This document shows, piece by piece, positions 10,392-32,045 of a stretch of 64,000 nucleotides of DNA (position 1 is its first letter; the number at the start of each line of letters is the position of its first letter). Source of the stretch: a virus. The position numbers were made by a program, and so were the translations under genes. The stretch spans positions 1-64,000 of IMG/VR virus record IMGVR_UViG_3300023063_000001; one strand, written 5' to 3'. Under the pieces are notes generated by a model. The model did no database searches. It had not been told where the DNA came from and saw nothing but the letters and a program-made list of their open reading frames with translations.

Positions 10392-11711
10392 TTAAACGCT
10401 CATCTTCCGCTGAATAATAGTACCATCTACTTCTTTCCAAGCTGCACCTACTGGAACAGGCAATGTAGAGTTAAACCGTTTTCTATAGCAATCCCCCATA
10501 GTGTCGCACAAAAGATTCATGTGCTCAACTTTTGTAATGAACGAATCATGCACAATGAGAATTGGATAACCTTTCTTAATAAACACCTCTACCACATCAG
10601 ATGCCAGATTACTGTCATGATTCTGCAATACCAAACCATAACTCTCAGATTTACAAAGAATATCTGAGAACTGAGGGTAAGCGTTAAAGATCAAATCAAG
10701 AACATCAGAGCCATTACCGAGCGTGTACTGTTCTTTATCTTCGTTACTTAGTTTATTAATGTGACGTTGTACAGCCCCACGAGCGCCTTTATAGTCTTTA
10801 GAGTTTAGCATGACATTCACAGCAAGCTTCACTACAGCACGATCAACACCATTATTTTCATCTGGAATCATGCCAGAATAAACATCAGTTGGAAGGTTGT
10901 CGCGATCAATGTCGTTCAGTTCACTCGCAATAAGAAAATGTAAATTGCCATAATCGATTTCACATACGTTACTGTCATCAATAGTGATATGCCAGCGACC
11001 GTATTTATCTCCAACTTTATGTTGCAAACCAAGAACATCAGCACGATAGAAACGCCCACCATGATCAAATGTTTCATTGAAGATACGGCAGTAGATGTTA
11101 GTCATAATGTCACCATTACGGTCACGAATAATATGACTTTCATTCAGCACATTAAGGTCACGCACAACCTTAGACATACGACGAAGGCCGGAATTACTTC
11201 GAAATACAGTTACAACTTTCTCCCCATCTCTTAGCTCAAGCGTGCCCAACTGGTCTACGTATTGCATTTGAGATTCCATCTTAACCTCTTCATTCCACAA
11301 TGCTTTGAATTTGTCTGTTGCTGTCATGTAGCTGCTCACACGTCTTTCTATGTTTTCACTGGCCTGACCAACAGAGTTGATAATATACCCGTTATCCTCA
11401 AGCCAGTCAACAGCTTTCTTGATATGATGGGAGGTAAGCCCTTTCTTGCTCTCCAAATTCTTATTCTTTCTTGGGTATACAAGTTTACTTTCTTTCTTTA
11501 AGCAACAAATAAGATTAGCAACAATAACATTAAGTGTAGTCTTATCTTCATAAGTCCACATACGAGTACAATTCATAACCTCTTGAGATACTTTAATATC
11601 ATACATCAATACCTTGGCATTAGAGATATGATTATTGTTATACAAGAGCAAGGGCTGGTATCTGATATTATCTTCATCTTGTTCTAGTACACTCCATACT
11701 TCTTCTTCCAT
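10392..11711 (-). CDS. Uncharacterised single-subunit-polymerase-like protein (439 aa)
   Basis: 439 aa, the largest protein of the left arm. Visible order: a winged-helix-like segment (about 92-112, TSHHIKKAVDWLEDNGYI); HGGRFYRAD (217-225); EIDYGNLHF (251-259), like motif A of T7-type RNA and family A DNA polymerases, where the Asp binds metal; RAVVKLAVNVMLN (291-303), like the R-xxx-K of motif B; NHDSN (364-368); and VHDSFIT (387-393), like motif C, which in T7 RNA polymerase is HDSFGT. Proteins with this layout exist as unannotated genes on proteobacterial plasmids and prophages (recalled, not checked). It is half the size of T7 RNA polymerase, so an active polymerase, primase-like or terminal-transferase-like enzyme, or a degenerate relative, are all possible. 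The phage also carries a family B replicase. Confidence 0.6.
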   Translation of the reverse strand: MEEEVWSVLEQDEDNIRYQPLLLYNNNHISNAKVLMYDIKVSQEVMNCTRMWTYEDKTTLNVIVANLICCLKKESKLVYPRKNKNLESKKGLTSHHIKKAVDWLEDNGYIINSVGQASENIERRVSSYMTATDKFKALWNEEVKMESQMQYVDQLGTLELRDGEKVVTVFRSNSGLRRMSKVVRDLNVLNESHIIRDRNGDIMTNIYCRIFNETFDHGGRFYRADVLGLQHKVGDKYGRWHITIDDSNVCEIDYGNLHFLIASELNDIDRDNLPTDVYSGMIPDENNGVDRAVVKLAVNVMLNSKDYKGARGAVQRHINKLSNEDKEQYTLGNGSDVLDLIFNAYPQFSDILCKSESYGLVLQNHDSNLASDVVEVFIKKGYPILIVHDSFITKVEHMNLLCDTMGDCYRKRFNSTLPVPVGAAWKEVDGTIIQRKMSV

Positions 11712-11751
11712 CTTTAGTCCTCCTATCCTCTCTTATTGGGTATGGGAAATT

Positions 11752-11798
11752 TTATAAAAAAAATAAGGCTACAGCCCACGTAGCATATAGCCTGTAGC
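11752..11798 (-). terminator. Strong intrinsic terminator
   Basis: Minus-strand GCTACAG...CTGTAGC stem (11792-11798 with 11768-11774) followed by CTTATTTTTTTT. It ends the operon 13015-11823 upstream of the polymerase-like gene. Confidence 0.8.
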
Positions 11799-13070: not shown

Positions 13071-13139
13071 CAATTATTTTCAAACCCTTGTGCCAACACG
13101 TCTCCAGACAACCCTCGGAAAATATTTTCAGCACACCCC

Positions 13140-13167
13140 TTGACTCACCCTACAATTCTGGTAAGCT
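13140..13167 (+). promoter_or_regulatory. Rightward early promoter
   Basis: TTGACT (13140-13145), 16-bp spacer, TAAGCT (13162-13167). The spacer begins CACCCTACAA, shared with the promoters at 15244, 20690 and 32243. Divergent from 13042-13070. Confidence 0.55.
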
Positions 13168-13198
13168 AAGAAAAACCAACAGACAAAGGGTGTACAAA

Positions 13199-14035
13199 AT
13201 GAGAACTGACTTTCAACTCCCAGCTATCTTTTCGGATACCACGCCGATTGATTGGACCTATACAAAACCTATATCCACCAAATCTATTCAAGAGGCATGG
13301 GCTACTGCCAATCCTGTCACCGTTCGTATGGAGGAATTTGGTTTACCTCAACAAGCTAATAAAAGCAGAGAATTGATGCAAAAGCCTAAATGCAAACGTC
13401 CATCACGTACAGATTTTATGATAAGGGGAAAGACGTTCTCACAATACCTTGAAAAGCGCTTTGTTGTGGACAATTTGGGGTTCAAACCGCTTGATACACT
13501 CTTGGCTGCATCAACAGACGGGGGAAGCATTATCGCCTCTGTAGTACCTCAAAACCCCGTAGAATTCTTGACATACTCCCATGAGCTTGGCCACGTCAAG
13601 AGCAAACAATATCAGCGCGGAATGGAATATGGATTCTCCCTATATAGCTCAGTTTGTGATAACACATTGGAGAATGAATTGAATGCTTGGGTGTGGGGAT
13701 TGAAATACTTCCGCCGTCTTGGTTTTACCTTGTGCAGTGCAGGGAAAGCCTTGGTTACAGAGACATTTTCCACATACACAGAGAAATGTACAAACAAAGA
13801 TTTCGTTGAATATTGCTGGAGCACTTTGTACAATAAGTTTGATATACAAAAACCGCAGCGCAAGAATGATAGTTGGAAATCATTTGAAAGTAACAGAATT
13901 CATGAGGCTTATTTCTACTATGATGAAGTTTCTCCTATCACAGAGCGAACAGAAATTGAGAAGCCTAAAGGCTGGAAGCCTTGGCATGATATGAAGCAAA
14001 AGCAGATTAAAAGGCAATGGAAACAGCAAAGATAG
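13199..14035 (+). CDS. Zinc metallopeptidase-like protein (278 aa)
   Basis: The start ATG at 13199 (MRTDFQLPAIFSDTTPIDW) follows AAAGGGTGTACAAA; an upstream in-frame ATG at 13088 precedes the promoter and is rejected. About residues 128-132 are HELGH (in YSHELGHVKSKQY), the HExxH zinc motif, and NELNAWVWGLKYF about 30 residues later can supply the third ligand, a layout like ImmA/IrrE-type peptidases. The rest is unlike any family I know. As first gene of the rightward arm it may cleave a host or phage regulator early in infection (inference). Confidence 0.6.
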   Translation: MRTDFQLPAIFSDTTPIDWTYTKPISTKSIQEAWATANPVTVRMEEFGLPQQANKSRELMQKPKCKRPSRTDFMIRGKTFSQYLEKRFVVDNLGFKPLDTLLAASTDGGSIIASVVPQNPVEFLTYSHELGHVKSKQYQRGMEYGFSLYSSVCDNTLENELNAWVWGLKYFRRLGFTLCSAGKALVTETFSTYTEKCTNKDFVEYCWSTLYNKFDIQKPQRKNDSWKSFESNRIHEAYFYYDEVSPITERTEIEKPKGWKPWHDMKQKQIKRQWKQQR

Positions 14036-16003: not shown

Positions 16004-16199
16004 TCCAGTCTATAGTAAATGCACAGGTAAAGATTGCAATCAGAAGGATTTGTGTGTACGCTATACGTCCTTGGCGTTAGTCAAGCATCAACCATGGCTT
16101 TGTGAGGAAGTGGTGTTTGGGGATGGGAAAGGGAGAGATGGGTGTAAGTGGTATTTGGGTGAAGAGGTAGAATTGGTGGAAGAGAAATTGGAGGGGTGA
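15996..16199 (+). CDS. Cys-rich small protein (67 aa)
   Basis: Start ATG at 15996 (MNNPVYSKCTGKDCNQKDLC) overlaps the preceding stop. Four cysteines C9, C14, C20 and one in WLCEEV, then DGCKWYLG, suggest a small zinc-binding domain. It sits directly ahead of the primase-helicase and overlaps it, so may act with it (inference). Confidence 0.6.
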   Translation: MNNPVYSKCTGKDCNQKDLCVRYTSLALVKHQPWLCEEVVFGDGKGRDGCKWYLGEEVELVEEKLEG

Positions 16200-17950
16200 T
16201 GAGTAAAAAACCAGATGGAGAACTTTTGTATCACGCTGCCTGTATTGGAGACGACTGCACGTCTTCAGACGGGATGGCAGTATATATAAAAGAAATCGAT
16301 GGTAAGCAGATTCATGACGCTTATTGTTTCGTATGTACAAATTATTTCAATCACTCCCAGCTTGAAGAATTGGGCGTAAAGATCAAAGAGGGGAAAAACA
16401 AAGTGTCAGAAGTCGTAGACTTTACAAATATTCAAGTGATTCCATTTCGCGGCTGGAAAGAACGCGGTATTGGTCAACCGGTATCAACGAAATACGGAGT
16501 TCACACAGAGATTGAAAATAGTTTTGATGTAGTTGCTCGCTACTATCCTTCTACATCTGACGGCAAGCTTGTTGGATTCAAAAAACGAACTTCACCAATT
16601 AAAGACTTTGTTGGTATTGGTAGCACTAAAGCAACCAATGAGATGTTCGGGCAATCTGTCTTTGAAGCTGGTCAAAAATATTTAGTAATCTGTACAGGAG
16701 AGGAGGACGCGCTTGCGTTCGCTCAAGCATTATATTCAAAGAAAGACGGTACAGAATATTGGACACCTGCTGTGAGTGTAACGTGCGGTGACGGCAGTAT
16801 CATCAAACAATTCAAAGCTAATTTTGAATATATCAATAGCTTCTCTAAAGTTATCTTGGCATTTGATCAAGATGAATCAGCACAAAAGTATGTTGAGGAA
16901 GCTGCACGTCTATTAACTCCGGGTAAAGCATTTATTGCGAAGTTCCCACAAGGGGTAAAAGATGCCTCAGACATGGTTAAAGCTGGCCGCTCTGCTGAAC
17001 TGAAACAGTTGTTTTGGAAAGCCACTCCGTTTAGTCGAGTGGATGTATTGCACCTTAGTCAGATGTGGGACGACTTTGAAAGTGAAGATAATAATGTAAA
17101 GATTCCATTCCCTGCCTCATGGTCACATCTTAACGAGATGATGAACGGCGGTATGGAAAAAGGTGAAATTACAATCATAGGTGCATTAACAAGTATTGGG
17201 AAATCCTCAATTGTCAACAATGTAGTCTACTCTCTAATTGAGAACACGCATTTCAAAGTAGGTGCAATGTATCTTGAAGGCACTAAGCGAGAAGTTGTAC
17301 GCGACTTGTTGTCTCTTGATGCTGGGATGAACCTCCGCACAGTAAATCGTGAAAACGTAGATATTGAAGCTCTCAAGAGTCGTTTCTTTGAGAACCTTGC
17401 AAAGAAAGATCAATTCGTTTATGTTGATCACCAAGGCAGTATCTCAACAACAGAGATTTTTGATAAGCTTAATTATCTGGCTAAGGCTGAAAACTGTGAT
17501 GTAATTGTCATCGATCCAGTGCAGGCTGGTGTGAACAGTAGCGACAATGGTGCAATTATTGAGTTCATGGATACACTCTTGAAGTTTGCAAAGGAAACAG
17601 ACACTTGTGTGGTGGCGATCTCACACATGCGCAAGCCTTCTGAAGAAAATCCGCACGCTGTTACCGAATACCAATTAATGGGTTCGTCCAGCCTGAACCA
17701 AATTGCTTTCAATACAATTTTGATCAGCCGCGACAAGATGAACCCTGATCCAATCAAAAAGTCAGCCACTAAGTTGCAATTGGTTAAGTGTCGTCGTACA
17801 GGTAACACAGGAGACGCCGGATGGTTGCGATACGATGGTGCTACAACACATATGTTTGCAACATCTGATCCTTATGTGGAAGATATGCTACTAGATGAAC
17901 CACCATCAGCAGAAAGCTTAGAAGTTCCTGCATATATGGTTGACTTTTAG
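16199..17950 (+). CDS. Primase-helicase, T7 gp4-like (583 aa)
   Basis: 583 aa. The N terminus has a zinc-finger-like CIGDDC ... YCFVC (about residues 16-47) used by T7-type primases to read template DNA. A TOPRIM primase domain follows (CTGEEDALAFA, about 168-178, and LAFDQDESA, about 222-230, give the catalytic acidic residues). The C-terminal half is a RecA-fold helicase: Walker A GALTSIGKSSIVNN, Walker B VIVIDPVQAG, and a SHMRKP motif like the RecA/DnaB sensor region. Together it unwinds the fork and primes lagging-strand synthesis. The ATG at 16199 follows GGAGGGG; a GTG at 16196 is a minor alternative. Directly followed by the DNA polymerase. Confidence 0.9.
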   Translation: MSKKPDGELLYHAACIGDDCTSSDGMAVYIKEIDGKQIHDAYCFVCTNYFNHSQLEELGVKIKEGKNKVSEVVDFTNIQVIPFRGWKERGIGQPVSTKYGVHTEIENSFDVVARYYPSTSDGKLVGFKKRTSPIKDFVGIGSTKATNEMFGQSVFEAGQKYLVICTGEEDALAFAQALYSKKDGTEYWTPAVSVTCGDGSIIKQFKANFEYINSFSKVILAFDQDESAQKYVEEAARLLTPGKAFIAKFPQGVKDASDMVKAGRSAELKQLFWKATPFSRVDVLHLSQMWDDFESEDNNVKIPFPASWSHLNEMMNGGMEKGEITIIGALTSIGKSSIVNNVVYSLIENTHFKVGAMYLEGTKREVVRDLLSLDAGMNLRTVNRENVDIEALKSRFFENLAKKDQFVYVDHQGSISTTEIFDKLNYLAKAENCDVIVIDPVQAGVNSSDNGAIIEFMDTLLKFAKETDTCVVAISHMRKPSEENPHAVTEYQLMGSSSLNQIAFNTILISRDKMNPDPIKKSATKLQLVKCRRTGNTGDAGWLRYDGATTHMFATSDPYVEDMLLDEPPSAESLEVPAYMVDF

Positions 17951-17994: not shown

Positions 17995-20181
17995 TTGGAA
18001 AAGAAATTCTTTAAGACCGATTTCATTTGGGATTTGGAAACCTACCCAAATTGCTTTACTTTCGCGGCTGTCTACGCTAATGGTCAAGGTATGCGAGCAT
18101 TTGAAATTAGTGACCGTAAGAATGAAGTTGATGAGATGCTTGAATTCCTACGCAAAGTTAAAGGCGGAGGATACCGCCTAGTAGGTTTCAACTCTGTTGG
18201 ATTTGATTACCCTATTCTTCACCACATCTTGCAGAAAGCTCGTAAGATTCATGGTACTGACAAGAAACTGAAAGTAACGGCTAAGGAGTTGTTTGATCTA
18301 GCACAGAAAACTATTAACTCAAACAAGGAGAATAAGTTTGGCTCTGCTGTCAAAGAAAAGGATGTGATTATCCCACAGGTGGACTTGTTTAAAATTCACC
18401 ACTTTGATAACAACGCTCGCTCAACATCTTTGAAAATGCTTGAATACAATATGCGTTCGACTAATATTGAAGACCTGCCTTATCCAGTGGGCGCTACCTT
18501 GTCAGATGCAGAAAAAGATAACCTAATCAAATACAACAAACACGATGTCATGGAAACACTCAAGTTCTATTGGTATTCTTATGAGAACCTAAAACTTCGT
18601 GCTGATCTGACTGATCAGTTTGGCTTTGACTGTACCAACTTTAATGATACAAAGATTGGTAAAGAGTTGTTTATTCGCACTCTTGAGAAAGAAGCTCCAG
18701 GTAGTTGCTACGTGAAAACAGAATATGGTCGTGAGGTAAGGCAGACCAAGCGAGATAAGATTGTAATTAAGGATTGTTTATTTCCTTATATCAAGTTTGA
18801 TCGCCCCGAGTTTCAAGCCGTACATAAATGGTTTCAGACTCAAATCATCACCGAAACTAAGGGGGTATTCAGTGATTTGATGGAACATCAGTTGGGTGAT
18901 GTTGCTAAATATGCTGAGATGGTTGTAAAGAAAAAGAAATTGTCCGATCCTGCTGGCAAAAAGAATAAGCGTTATATTCCCTCAGAGGATGTGATTACAG
19001 CCTGTAAGAAAGAACAACCTTTGGGTTGGCTTGAGGAAAAGGAGCTAAAGAGTCCTAAGGGTGCTAAGAGTTATTATTGGTGCTGGAATGTAGCTGAAAC
19101 ATTGAACGTAATAATCAATGGTTTTCGCTATGACTACGGCGTGGGTGGTATTCATGGAGCTACACAAGGAACTATTCGTAGCACTGAGAGTCGAAAGATA
19201 CGCACACTTGACGTTGCCAGCTACTACCCTAACATGGCAATCGCTAACCAAATTTACCCTAAACACTTGGGTAAAACGTTCTGCAAGGTGTACTCTGACC
19301 TATATGAACAACGTAAGGCAACACCCAAAGGGTCAGCAGCTAACGCAGCATTAAAGCTTGCTTTAAATGGTGTATACGGGGATAGCAACAATGAGTTCAG
19401 TCCCTTGCTTGATCCAGCGTATACAATGGCGATTACAATCGGCGGTCAGCTTTCCCTGTGTATGCTTATGGAAAAGCTAATTGATAATTGTGATGCGCGA
19501 ATTATCATGTGTAACACTGACGGCTTTGAGTACATCATTGACGTTGATAAATTTGATGAGGCTGATAAGTGGGTGACGTGGTGGGAAGATCTGACCAAAC
19601 TCCAGATGGAAGGCGATTCATATAGTCAAATGTTTATTCGTGACGTGAATAATTACACCAGCATTACAGAGTCCGGAAAAATCAAGCTTAAAGGAGCTTA
19701 TGAATATATGGACTTTGATAAGCTTGGTTGGCACAAGAACCATTCAGCAATGGTAGTTCCTATGGCTGTGAAAGCTCAACTGATTGATGGTGTAGATCAC
19801 GAAGAGTTTATTCGTTTGCATGAGAACAAGTTTGACTTTATGCTGAGGACGAAAGTACCAAGGAGTAGTAGTCTTGCGCTGGTAGTTGATGGTGAGGATA
19901 TTCAACAACAGAATATCTGCCGTTATTATCCAGCAAAAGAAGGTGGTGGTAAGTTGATTAAGCTTATGCCTCCTTTGGTAGAAGGAGGAGAAGTGCGTAG
20001 GTTGGGTATTGATACGGATTGGAATGTTAAGACGTGTAACAACATTCATGACTTCTCTTGGGGAGTTGACTATAAATATTACATTGATCAGGCAGCTAAA
20101 CTTATTGAAGCAGTGTCCGAGGATGTAACTGATAAGCAAGGTAAAAATTGTGAAAGAAGTGTGGAAACCAGTATTGATTAA
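17995..20181 (+). CDS. Family B DNA polymerase (728 aa), TTG start
   Basis: The frame starts at TTG (17995) after CTAGGAGATTTAGC; no better ATG precedes it. N-terminal 3'-5' exonuclease: WDLETYPN (DxE, Exo I, about residues 12-19), GFNSVGFDYPI (Exo II), and YNKHDVMET (Exo III, YxxxD). Polymerase motifs: A LDVASYYPN, B KLALNGVYGDSNN, C MCNTDGFEYI. Motif C is unusual, with N-T-D in place of D-T-D; the second Asp, the essential one, is kept. It is the replicative polymerase. The last 11 codons overlap the HNH gene at 20150. Confidence 0.9.
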   Translation: MEKKFFKTDFIWDLETYPNCFTFAAVYANGQGMRAFEISDRKNEVDEMLEFLRKVKGGGYRLVGFNSVGFDYPILHHILQKARKIHGTDKKLKVTAKELFDLAQKTINSNKENKFGSAVKEKDVIIPQVDLFKIHHFDNNARSTSLKMLEYNMRSTNIEDLPYPVGATLSDAEKDNLIKYNKHDVMETLKFYWYSYENLKLRADLTDQFGFDCTNFNDTKIGKELFIRTLEKEAPGSCYVKTEYGREVRQTKRDKIVIKDCLFPYIKFDRPEFQAVHKWFQTQIITETKGVFSDLMEHQLGDVAKYAEMVVKKKKLSDPAGKKNKRYIPSEDVITACKKEQPLGWLEEKELKSPKGAKSYYWCWNVAETLNVIINGFRYDYGVGGIHGATQGTIRSTESRKIRTLDVASYYPNMAIANQIYPKHLGKTFCKVYSDLYEQRKATPKGSAANAALKLALNGVYGDSNNEFSPLLDPAYTMAITIGGQLSLCMLMEKLIDNCDARIIMCNTDGFEYIIDVDKFDEADKWVTWWEDLTKLQMEGDSYSQMFIRDVNNYTSITESGKIKLKGAYEYMDFDKLGWHKNHSAMVVPMAVKAQLIDGVDHEEFIRLHENKFDFMLRTKVPRSSSLALVVDGEDIQQQNICRYYPAKEGGGKLIKLMPPLVEGGEVRRLGIDTDWNVKTCNNIHDFSWGVDYKYYIDQAAKLIEAVSEDVTDKQGKNCERSVETSID

Positions 20182-29655: not shown

Positions 29656-30637
29656 ATGAGTAACGCTGGTAAAGAAATGATGAGTCAATCAAAGTTTTAT
29701 ATGGGTTATTCCCGCTGGGATGAAATCAAGGGCGGTTATGAAACATGGGAACAATCAGTTTCCCGTGTAATGGATATGCACCGACAAAAGTATTCTTCTG
29801 TAATGACACCACAGCTTGAAGAGTATATTGCTTTTGCAGAACAAGCTTACAAAGATAAAGTTGTACTCGGCGCCCAACGAGCATTGCAATTTGGTGGTGA
29901 ACAATTATTCAAACACGAAACTCGTATGTACAACTGCTCAGTATCCCATTGTGATCGAGCCACTTTCTTTCAAGAGTGTATGTATCTTCTGCTGTGTGGT
30001 TGTGGTGTAGGCTTCTCAGTACAGTCACACCACATTGCAAAGCTACCCAAAGTTCATAAGCGATATGAAAAGAAAGTAAAAGTATTTCAGGTGCCTGATA
30101 CAATTGAAGGATGGGCTGATGCTTTTGGTGTTCTGTTCAGTAGCTACTTTGTAGATGGTGGTAGCTTTCCTGAATATAAGGGTTGCCAAGTTCACTTTGA
30201 TTTCAATAAGATTCGCCCTAAAGGTGCTTTGATTTCAGGGGGTTTTAAGGCACCCGGACCAGATGGCTTGCGTAGTGCATTAGTTAAGTGTGAAGCTTTG
30301 CTAGAAGCACTAGTTGAGGGTAAGACAGAGGCTGTAAGTGTACCTACCATCACAGCTTACGACTTTGTAATGCATATGTCTGATGCTGTATTAAGCGGCG
30401 GTGTTCGTCGCTCAGCTACAATTTGTATGTTTGATAAAGATGATGATTTGATGTTGAAGGCCAAGACTGGGGATTGGTTTGTTGATAACCCTCAACGCGG
30501 TCGTAGTAACAACAGCGTTATGCTAGTTCGTGATGAACTAAGCCGTGAAGAGTGGGCTAACATCATGAAGTCTGTTAAGGACTTTGGTGAACCCGGTTTC
30601 ATCTTCACAGAGAATAAAGAGTTCTGCTTCAATCCGT
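29656..30637 (+). CDS. nrdJ: Class II ribonucleotide reductase, exon 1
   Basis: Encodes residues 1-327 and the first base of codon 328 after AAGGAGCAACA. It contains MYNCSVSHCDR (the Cys paired with the active-site Cys after turnover), GCGVGFSVQSHH, SGGVRRSATICMF and GEPGFIFTENKEFCFNP. The frame then runs into a stop within the intron. Splicing at 30637/30808 gives 982 + 1238 = 2220 nt, exactly 739 codons plus stop, the same length as the monomeric Lactobacillus enzyme. Adenosylcobalamin-dependent enzymes of this type reduce ribonucleotides to deoxyribonucleotides without oxygen or an iron subunit, so they work aerobically and anaerobically; cobalamin must come from the host. Confidence 0.9.
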
Positions 30638-30807
30638 AAAATTACATGCGGATTTAAAACCTTCTCTGATTGACTTGGAAGCCAAATATAAGGCGACAGG
30701 GCGCAAGGGTAATGCCAGCGTGAGAGACTAAGTGAGAGGGGCACTAAATAGTGTATGCGATAGTCCAGCGCACAGTCAGAACTATATTTGATTACTGACA
30801 GTGTGAG
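30638..30807 (+). ncRNA. Group I intron (170 nt, no ORF)
   Basis: The 5' exon ends AATCCGT and pairs fully with GCGGATT (30648-30654) as P1, placing U-G at the splice site. P7 is GACTA (30726-30730) with TAGTC (30761-30765), P8 is CACT-AAAT-AGTG (30742-30753), and the intron ends in G (30807). Removal restores the frame and the NPCVEIGM active-site motif. Very compact, with no endonuclease inside. Confidence 0.9.
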
Positions 30808-32045
30808 GTGTAGAAATTGGTATGCTTCCAATTGCAGAAAATGGAGACTCTGGTTTTCAATTCTGTAATTTGACAGAACTTAATGGTAGCAAATGTGTGG
30901 ATAAAGAATCTTTCTTTAGGGCTTGTAAAGCCGGAGCTATTCTTGGGACCCTTCAGGCAGGTTACTCAAACTTTAAATACTTGTCAGATGCAACACGTCG
31001 CATTACAGAGAAAGAGGCATTGCTTGGGGTTAGTATTACCGGTTGGATGAACAACCCCGATGTGCTATTTGACCCACAGAATATGATTGATGGGGCCACA
31101 GTTGTAAAAGATATTAACTCTGTTGTTGCTATTTTATTGGGTATCAATCAAGCTGCACGGACAACAGCAGTAAAACCCTCTGGTAATGCTTCTGTAGTAC
31201 TAGGCACAGCTTCAGGTATCCATGGAGAACATAGCCCTAAGTATCTTCGTAATGTACAGATGAACGTAGGAGATGAGGTTACACGCATTATTACAAAGAC
31301 CAACCCTAAAATGGTTGAATCAAGTGTTTGGAGTAGTAATGGAACAGATGTTGTAGTTAGCTTCCCTGTTGAAAGTAAAGAGGGATCTATCTATAAATCT
31401 GATTTGATGGGCGTGAAGCAGCTTGAGTATGTAAAGACAGCACAGCAATATTGGATTGAACACGGTACAAACTATGAGCTTTGTGTTGACCCTGATCTTC
31501 GTCATAACGTAAGTAATACCATCACAGTTGATGATTGGGATGAGGTTGAGGAGTATATCTACAACAACCGTAAATGGTTTGCTGGTATATCCCTTCTCAG
31601 CTCTATGGGGGATCGCGCATATGCTCAAGCTCCATTCACAGAAGTATTCACTGCACAACAGATTGTTGATATGTATGGTGATAGTTCAATGTTTGCATCT
31701 GGTTTGATTGTAGGTGCATTACAAGCTTTTGGTAACAATTTGTGGATGGCTTGCGATACTGCATTGGGATATGGACTTAAACTTGACCCTGAAGATTCAT
31801 CAGACCTTTTAAAGCGTGATTGGGTACGACGTATCAAGAAGTTTGCTGAACGAAACTTTGAAGGTGATACTATGAAGCTTACGTTTATGCTTAAAGATTG
31901 TCATAATCTTCATAAGTGGGTGGGAATCAATAATAACTTTATTAATGTGGATTTCTCACAAGATTTGTCTCAGCAAAGCTATACAGAAGTTGATACAATG
32001 GGTAGCCAAGCCTGCGCAGGGGGTGTCTGCGAGATAAGCTTTTAA
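30808..32045 (+). CDS. nrdJ: Class II ribonucleotide reductase, exon 2
   Basis: The last two bases of codon 328 (Cys) to the stop; reads VEIGMLPIAENGDSGFQFCN. Cys328 in NPCVEIGM is, by family comparison, the thiyl-radical cysteine that starts catalysis. The C terminus ends QACAGGVCEISF, two Cys five residues apart, matching the redox pair that reloads the active site (C731/C736 in the Lactobacillus enzyme). TVKPSGNASVVLGTASGIHG is the conserved phosphate-binding loop region. An independent ATG at 30822 is an artefact of the interruption. Confidence 0.9.

Follow-up and report, generated by a model that had tools for sequence, protein, structure and literature searches.

The locus analysed here raises the question of what a small protein with the motifs of single-subunit polymerases is doing in a phage that encodes a DNA polymerase of its own. 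The stretch of DNA, hereafter the window, comprises 64,000 nucleotides (positions 1 to 64,000) of the IMG/VR virus record IMGVR_UViG_3300023063_000001, and the gene in question lies on its minus strand (Table 1). An original prediction, made from the sequence alone, had proposed a polymerase of the T7 RNA polymerase (RNAP) or Pol A type that could serve as a transcriptase, a primase-polymerase or a nucleotidyltransferase of defence or anti-defence. The main new result of our analysis is that the bacterial members of this family reside in small tRNA-integrated islands in which only a tyrosine integrase and the polymerase recur. Of the functions considered in the original prediction, that of a primase or replicative polymerase for mobile elements fits this genomic context best, and we lean slightly towards the reading that the protein is the replicating or priming polymerase of such elements and an accessory polymerase in large phages.

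On its predicted fold and its sequence, the protein very probably belongs to the polymerase superfamily. An AlphaFold2 (AF2) model of the full protein, built from a 71-row alignment, had a mean predicted local distance difference test score (pLDDT) of 89.4 and a predicted template modelling score (pTM) of 0.87; its residue numbers are lower by one than those of the protein. Structural prediction followed by a search against polymerase palms had been proposed as a check, and all 50 PDB entries listed were family A DNA polymerases or single-subunit RNAPs. Aligned to the leading PDB chains from Foldseek, the predicted model reached Z scores of 13.8-15.2 across approximately 235-260 residues (apicoplast Pol, 15.2; Pol nu, 14.9; Bst and Klentaq, 14.7; yeast mitochondrial RNAP, 14.5; T7 DNA polymerase, 14.3), which places the predicted fold in the superfamily that had been proposed. 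Foldseek alone was weaker (best E 3.7e-4), with a few family B polymerase matches among its rows. The N-terminal domain (to about residue 150), modelled separately with a pLDDT of 89, matched mostly winged-helix proteins in the PDB (best Z 6.8), so that the winged-helix-like N-terminus of the original prediction is supported as a category, with no specific relative.

Comparison of hidden Markov models (HMM-HMM) with the Pol A and RNA_pol families led in the same direction. For the catalytic part, the score was 44.9 with a set of seven T7-type RNAPs and 36.0 with one of 18 Pol A proteins, above the maxima of all controls (15.9 for reversed alignments, 27.9 and 20.2 for 40 column shuffles each, and 21.9 for 25 unrelated families). 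The block aligned with Pol A starts beyond TGR, includes motif A and extends to motif C, and it pairs motif A with its Pol A counterpart; the block aligned with RNAP is the region around motif C, which pairs with motif C of T7 RNAP. PF00940 (RNA_pol) was the Pfam family matched by most members, weakly and in 4 of 71 (best E 0.0013); it had no match above cut-off in the phage genome, and PF00476 had none there and none listed for the window protein. Searches of Pfam, PDB sequences and NCBIfam with the window protein returned nothing useful, a GalP_UDP_transf match (E 0.033) being rejected as chance. The protein is a member of PHROG 4756 (unknown function) at E 6e-49, and one BFVD member of that group is a 435-aa protein of Rheinheimera phage Barba31A named 'DNA polymerase'. 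Our literature searches found no description of the polymerase family, which does not prove that none exists.

The motifs EIDYGNLHF, RAVVKLAVNV (residues 291-300) and VHDSFIT are present in the order in which they had been read, in a protein that is indeed about half the length of T7 RNAP (439 versus 883 aa), and their residues are conserved across 71 non-redundant, diverse homologues, which we used for all conservation counts in the numbering of the window protein (Table 1). Given this conservation, the motif matches are no chance event. E251 is kept in 71/71, and the set invariant in 14 diverse members includes R209, R220, R239, E251, D253, H258, R291, K295, H388, D389 and S390. The RxxxK spacing is that of R627 and K631 in the T7 RNAP sequence, and the HDS motif is that of T7 H811-D812-S813. 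A fourth motif, missed by the original prediction, is the DxxGR-like D216-R220, of which GGR 218-220 corresponds in type to T7 D421xxGR425; across the family the GR is kept in 97-100% and the Asp in only 24/71. Since the ratio of nonsynonymous to synonymous substitution rates (dN/dS) between the window gene and two homologues (L016 and L017) is approximately 0.05, the protein is maintained by purifying selection. This value, together with the 97-100% conservation of the catalytic positions, makes it probable that the polymerase is catalytically active. The homologue L108, from an uncultured alphaproteobacterium, carries NDS in place of HDS in motif C and is possibly altered or inactive.

The steric-gate position and the O-helix Tyr govern sugar choice in Pol I and T7 RNAP. 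As mapped by motif spacing, the Pol I steric-gate Glu (motif A Asp +5) is replaced by His in 67/71 homologues, and the O-helix Tyr (Lys +8; Tyr766 of Pol I, Tyr639 of T7 RNAP) by Asn in 69/71, the T7-type Tyr being found only in L033 and L034. Because both sugar-selecting residues are replaced family-wide, an unusual selection between ribo- and deoxyribonucleoside triphosphates is predicted, with both possibly used.

Where, then, does such a protein occur? Relatives were found in at least 180 stretches of bacterial genome contigs and on two plasmid records. Of the plasmids and prophages named in the original prediction, the plasmids thus stand, while the chromosomal homologues turned out to lie in small tRNA-integrated islands rather than in prophages. 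In a first set of bacterial loci, collected by Rhodobacterales-based peptide patterns, 41 were 12.5 kb or longer; tyrosine integrases are present in 31 of these and tRNA genes in 27, compared with 0/20 and 1/20 control regions taken from the same set of genomes (Fisher 5e-9 and 4e-6). A replication set of 16 profile matches from a Pseudomonadota sample gave 12 and 9, versus 0/16 and 1/16 in regions of the same genomes. In 17 analysed elements, 5.5-14.1 kb long, the polymerase gene lies between direct repeats that contain the 3′ end of the tRNA. All 17 contain an integrase and the polymerase (L187 has two integrases, and in L115 the polymerase is a fragment); apart from genes common to island pairs, the one recurrent gene among the other 100 open reading frames (ORFs) codes for a serine resolvase, present in four islands. 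The cargo includes restriction-modification systems (type I among them), TIR and AIPR proteins, a carbonic anhydrase, a glycosyltransferase and others, and no replication helicase, relaxase or capsid gene is found among the top 25 cargo families.

As the loci had been selected by the presence of the polymerase, the association was retested from the integrase side. The polymerase occurs in 45/295 genomes of the family to which the element L038 belongs and in 24/398 genomes of the Pseudomonadota sample (approximately 6%). Integrases similar to that of L038 were found in 17 of the 295 genomes, 13 of which have the polymerase (p 7e-9 against the overall 45/295), and at about 8 of the 19 places with such an integrase the polymerase lies within 10 kb on the same contig. 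For the integrase of L179, the polymerase is present in 4 of 8 genomes, in all four within about 5 kb. That close integrases predict the presence of the polymerase favours its status as a core gene of the islands, although a stably carried defence gene would also be conceivable. In four cases (G283:C13, G254:C41, G296:C16 and G135:C1) polymerase fragments lie beside or near intact copies, which suggests repeated integration at the same sites. When empty sites were sought for the islands L038 and L179, the tRNA side proved to be retained in relatives, and similarity usually begins at or near the core of the attachment site (att); no clean, fully joined site was found.

The phage side of the family looks different in its surroundings. 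Tblastn found homologues in 44 phage records, mostly of Vibrio and Aeromonas phages of approximately 90-145 kb, annotated as hypothetical proteins, and a search starting from bacterial members added 115 Rheinheimera phage records. A primase-helicase (16196-17950) and a replicase (17995-20181, PHROG 1252 DNA polymerase) are encoded by the window phage itself. The original prediction had called this replicase family B; the DNA polymerase itself is there, and the family B label rests on a weak Pfam exonuclease match (E 0.0016, below cut-off) and motifs read by eye. Other carrier phages have Pol A-type polymerases, Shewanella phage KASIA also a T7-type RNAP, and some phages carry two diverged copies of the polymerase described here. 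From the carriers' own replicases and polymerases and from the two-copy phages, it follows that the gene is accessory in phages. A well-supported branch separates phage from bacterial members in a tree of 81 proteins; many phage branches are long, and recent exchange between phages and bacteria is not evident from it.

We propose that the protein combines the palm and fingers of the family A/T7 RNAP superfamily, lacking an exonuclease, with an N-terminal winged-helix-like domain, and that it would polymerise by a two-metal mechanism at D253 and D389. The winged helix would bind DNA and may steer the polymerase to the origin of the element. In the bacterial islands the polymerase would prime and/or replicate the excised circle, as proposed for piPolB in pipolins, drawing on the host helicase and other factors; in large phages with their own replicase it may be an accessory polymerase, perhaps for priming or for a second mode of replication. 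For the proposed element-replication role, we regard the evidence as evenly balanced. Several observations weigh against it. The islands have no recurrent helicase, initiator or primase, and replication would thus depend on factors of the host; integrases could equally well carry along a defence cargo gene; the element data come from bacterial members, which the sampled tree places apart from the phage members; and the carrier phages already own replicases, some with two diverged copies of the gene, an odd situation for a core enzyme of replication. A wider proposal, which we put forward tentatively and with the balance tilted against it, is that the family constitutes a third lineage of the family A/single-subunit RNAP superfamily, minimal, probably with de novo start or relaxed sugar choice, that it serves as the signature gene of an extensive, unrecognised class of self-synthesizing integrative elements built on a tyrosine integrase and a family A-like polymerase, and that large phages have acquired it.

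The most probable of the alternatives is a polymerase of defence or inter-element conflict, like the AbiA/AbiK/Abi-P2-type reverse transcriptases (RTs), the product of which would poison or signal against competing phages, with the phage copies serving superinfection exclusion. It is consistent with residence in integrase islands beside other defence cargo (type I restriction-modification, TIR, AIPR), with the patchy distribution and with the two diverged copies in some phages; Abi RTs synthesise untemplated DNA (PMC11077055). We nevertheless consider it unlikely, as the PADLOC models gave no convincing match (best E 0.0042, one member each), the islands carry unrelated cargo as well, such as carbonic anhydrase and glycosyltransferase, and the conserved R/K/DxxGR set suggests templated synthesis. 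A miniature T7-type RNAP for phage or element genes would account for the HDSF motif C and its preceding block, which are closest to single-subunit RNAPs, and for Pfam RNA_pol as the top weak match. However, no exact 14-mer occurs four or more times in the 83.6-kb phage genome, hence no T7-like promoter set is apparent (degenerate promoters could still occur), the protein is too small for the large N-terminal promoter-binding domain, and the rNTP-selecting Tyr (Y639) is replaced by Asn; a transcriptase is therefore distinctly improbable in our estimate.

Little probability is likewise left for a repair or gap-filling DNA polymerase acting in recombination: the lack of an exonuclease and structural matches that include the repair-type polymerases theta and nu would fit, but the winged helix, the residence in islands and the tight link to an integrase clade would be unexpected for such an enzyme. 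A catalytically dead relic that serves as a DNA-binding regulator is very hard to reconcile with catalytic residues that are 97-100% conserved among very divergent members, despite the winged-helix N-terminus and the few members, such as L108, that deviate at catalytic motifs.

Table 1. Features of the polymerase gene and its surroundings (positions in the window, except for the last row, which gives positions in other phage loci)
Feature	Position	Strand	Basis and remarks
Gene for minimal family A/T7 RNAP-superfamily polymerase (predicted), 439 aa, PHROG 4756	10392..11711	-	ORF, ATG start
Shine-Dalgarno AGGAGG	11719..11724	-	Sequence
Terminator-like hairpin upstream of polymerase gene	11768..11784	-	Weak: 1 found versus 1.1 expected by chance
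N-terminal winged-helix-like domain, residues 27-168	11208..11633	-	Separate AF2 model and PDB matches; category likely, no specific relative
DxxGR-like motif DHGGR, residues 216-220	11052..11066	-	G219 71/71, R220 69/71; T7 RNAP equivalent D421-R425
Invariant R239, ahead of motif A	10995..10997	-	71/71
Motif A EIDYGNLHF, residues 251-259	10935..10961	-	Catalytic D253 (predicted) 71/71; H258, steric-gate position (D+5), 67/71; pairs with Pol A motif A
Motif B/O-helix, residues 291-303	10803..10841	-	R291 70/71, K295 71/71, N303 69/71; assigned by RxxxK spacing
LQNHDS, residues 362-367	10611..10628	-	Pairs with T7 RNAP HSQDGS (784-789)
Motif C VHDSFIT, residues 387-393	10533..10553	-	Catalytic D389 (predicted) 70/71, H388 69/71, S390 69/71; pairs with T7 RNAP HDS
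Ribbon-helix-helix (RHH)-like ORF	L006:3460-3630, L011:3577-3774, L012:3397-3597, L030:4859-5056, L032:4853-5053; also L003, L009, L033, L034		

The hairpin upstream of the gene weakly suggests that the polymerase gene is a separate transcription unit. In the phages, the only candidate for a conserved partner gene beside the polymerase is a small ORF of RHH appearance, found in some clades but neither in that of the window gene nor in bacteria. This ORF, of 53-67 aa, lies directly upstream of the polymerase and in five phages overlaps its start by 31-58 nt; it has no convincing Pfam match, and a CopG-like regulator or an antitoxin is conceivable. In the phage loci L007 and L012, neighbouring ORFs of 450 and 426 aa, respectively, had been considered possible homologues but proved unrelated and were dropped. 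Elsewhere in the window, the adjacent ORFs at 29656-30639 and 30822-32045 correspond to successive stretches of a single ribonucleotide reductase family (phrog_367, positions 42-387 and 397-666), and the pair looks like a gene split by a short insert or intron. A 315-aa ORF at 13088-14035, where two gene arms diverge, has a HELGH zinc-metalloprotease-like motif and no PHROG match. An Rfam search of the window returned none. In the remainder of the phage genome (64001-83571, L148), a 14-mer occurs three times at an exact spacing of 189 bp, near positions 721, 910 and 1099 of L148, possibly as a tandem repeat within a coding region.

Compared with DNA polymerase family A (Pol I, T7 DNA polymerase, Pol theta, Pol nu), the family described here shares the predicted palm and fingers fold (Z about 14-15), the motif A Asp, RxxxK, the HD of motif C and a TGR-like Arg. 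It differs in having no exonuclease, a length of 439 aa, a winged-helix N-terminus and no PF00476 match, HDS (69/71) rather than HDE, His for the steric-gate Glu and Asn for the O-helix Tyr. With the single-subunit RNAPs (T7, mitochondrial) it has in common the HDSF motif C with its upstream block, the DxxGR-like motif and the fold (Z about 14.5), whereas it is half their size, lacks their type of N-terminal promoter domain, has Asn for Tyr639 and comes, in the window phage, with no T7-like promoter set that we could find. If the assignment is true, the family would be a minimal natural model of the fold common to Pol I and T7 RNAP, with both sugar-selecting residues altered.

Among mobile elements, the tycheposons and other tRNA-targeted genomic islands combine a tyrosine recombinase with tRNA integration, as described for Methylophilaceae (PMC10872708), and the islands described here resemble them in both respects, again in aquatic bacteria; that paper names no polymerase of the present family (the word 'polymerase' has 0 occurrences). 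The window copy does not itself sit in a tRNA-integrated element with an integrase like the bacterial copies: its surroundings are those of a tailed phage that has a terminase and a replicase, and there is no tRNA in the window. The plan of the islands is that of the pipolins of E. coli, which share nothing throughout but piPolB and the att sites; tyrosine recombinases are found in most of them, integration is at a tRNA gene and the cargo is variable (PMC7385651). The 17 bacterial elements likewise have a polymerase, a tyrosine recombinase, tRNA att repeats and variable cargo. In contrast, their polymerase is a small protein of family A-like predicted fold and not the family B piPolB, and because this defining polymerase is absent, the islands are not pipolins. 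The self-synthesizing elements of the pipolin literature (polintons, casposons and pipolins) use family B polymerases (PMC7385651). If the role proposed here is true, one small protein and an integrase might replicate and move an island, and the islands would represent a family A-like counterpart to family B self-synthesis, with a new type of polymerase, in approximately 6% of the sampled Pseudomonadota genomes.
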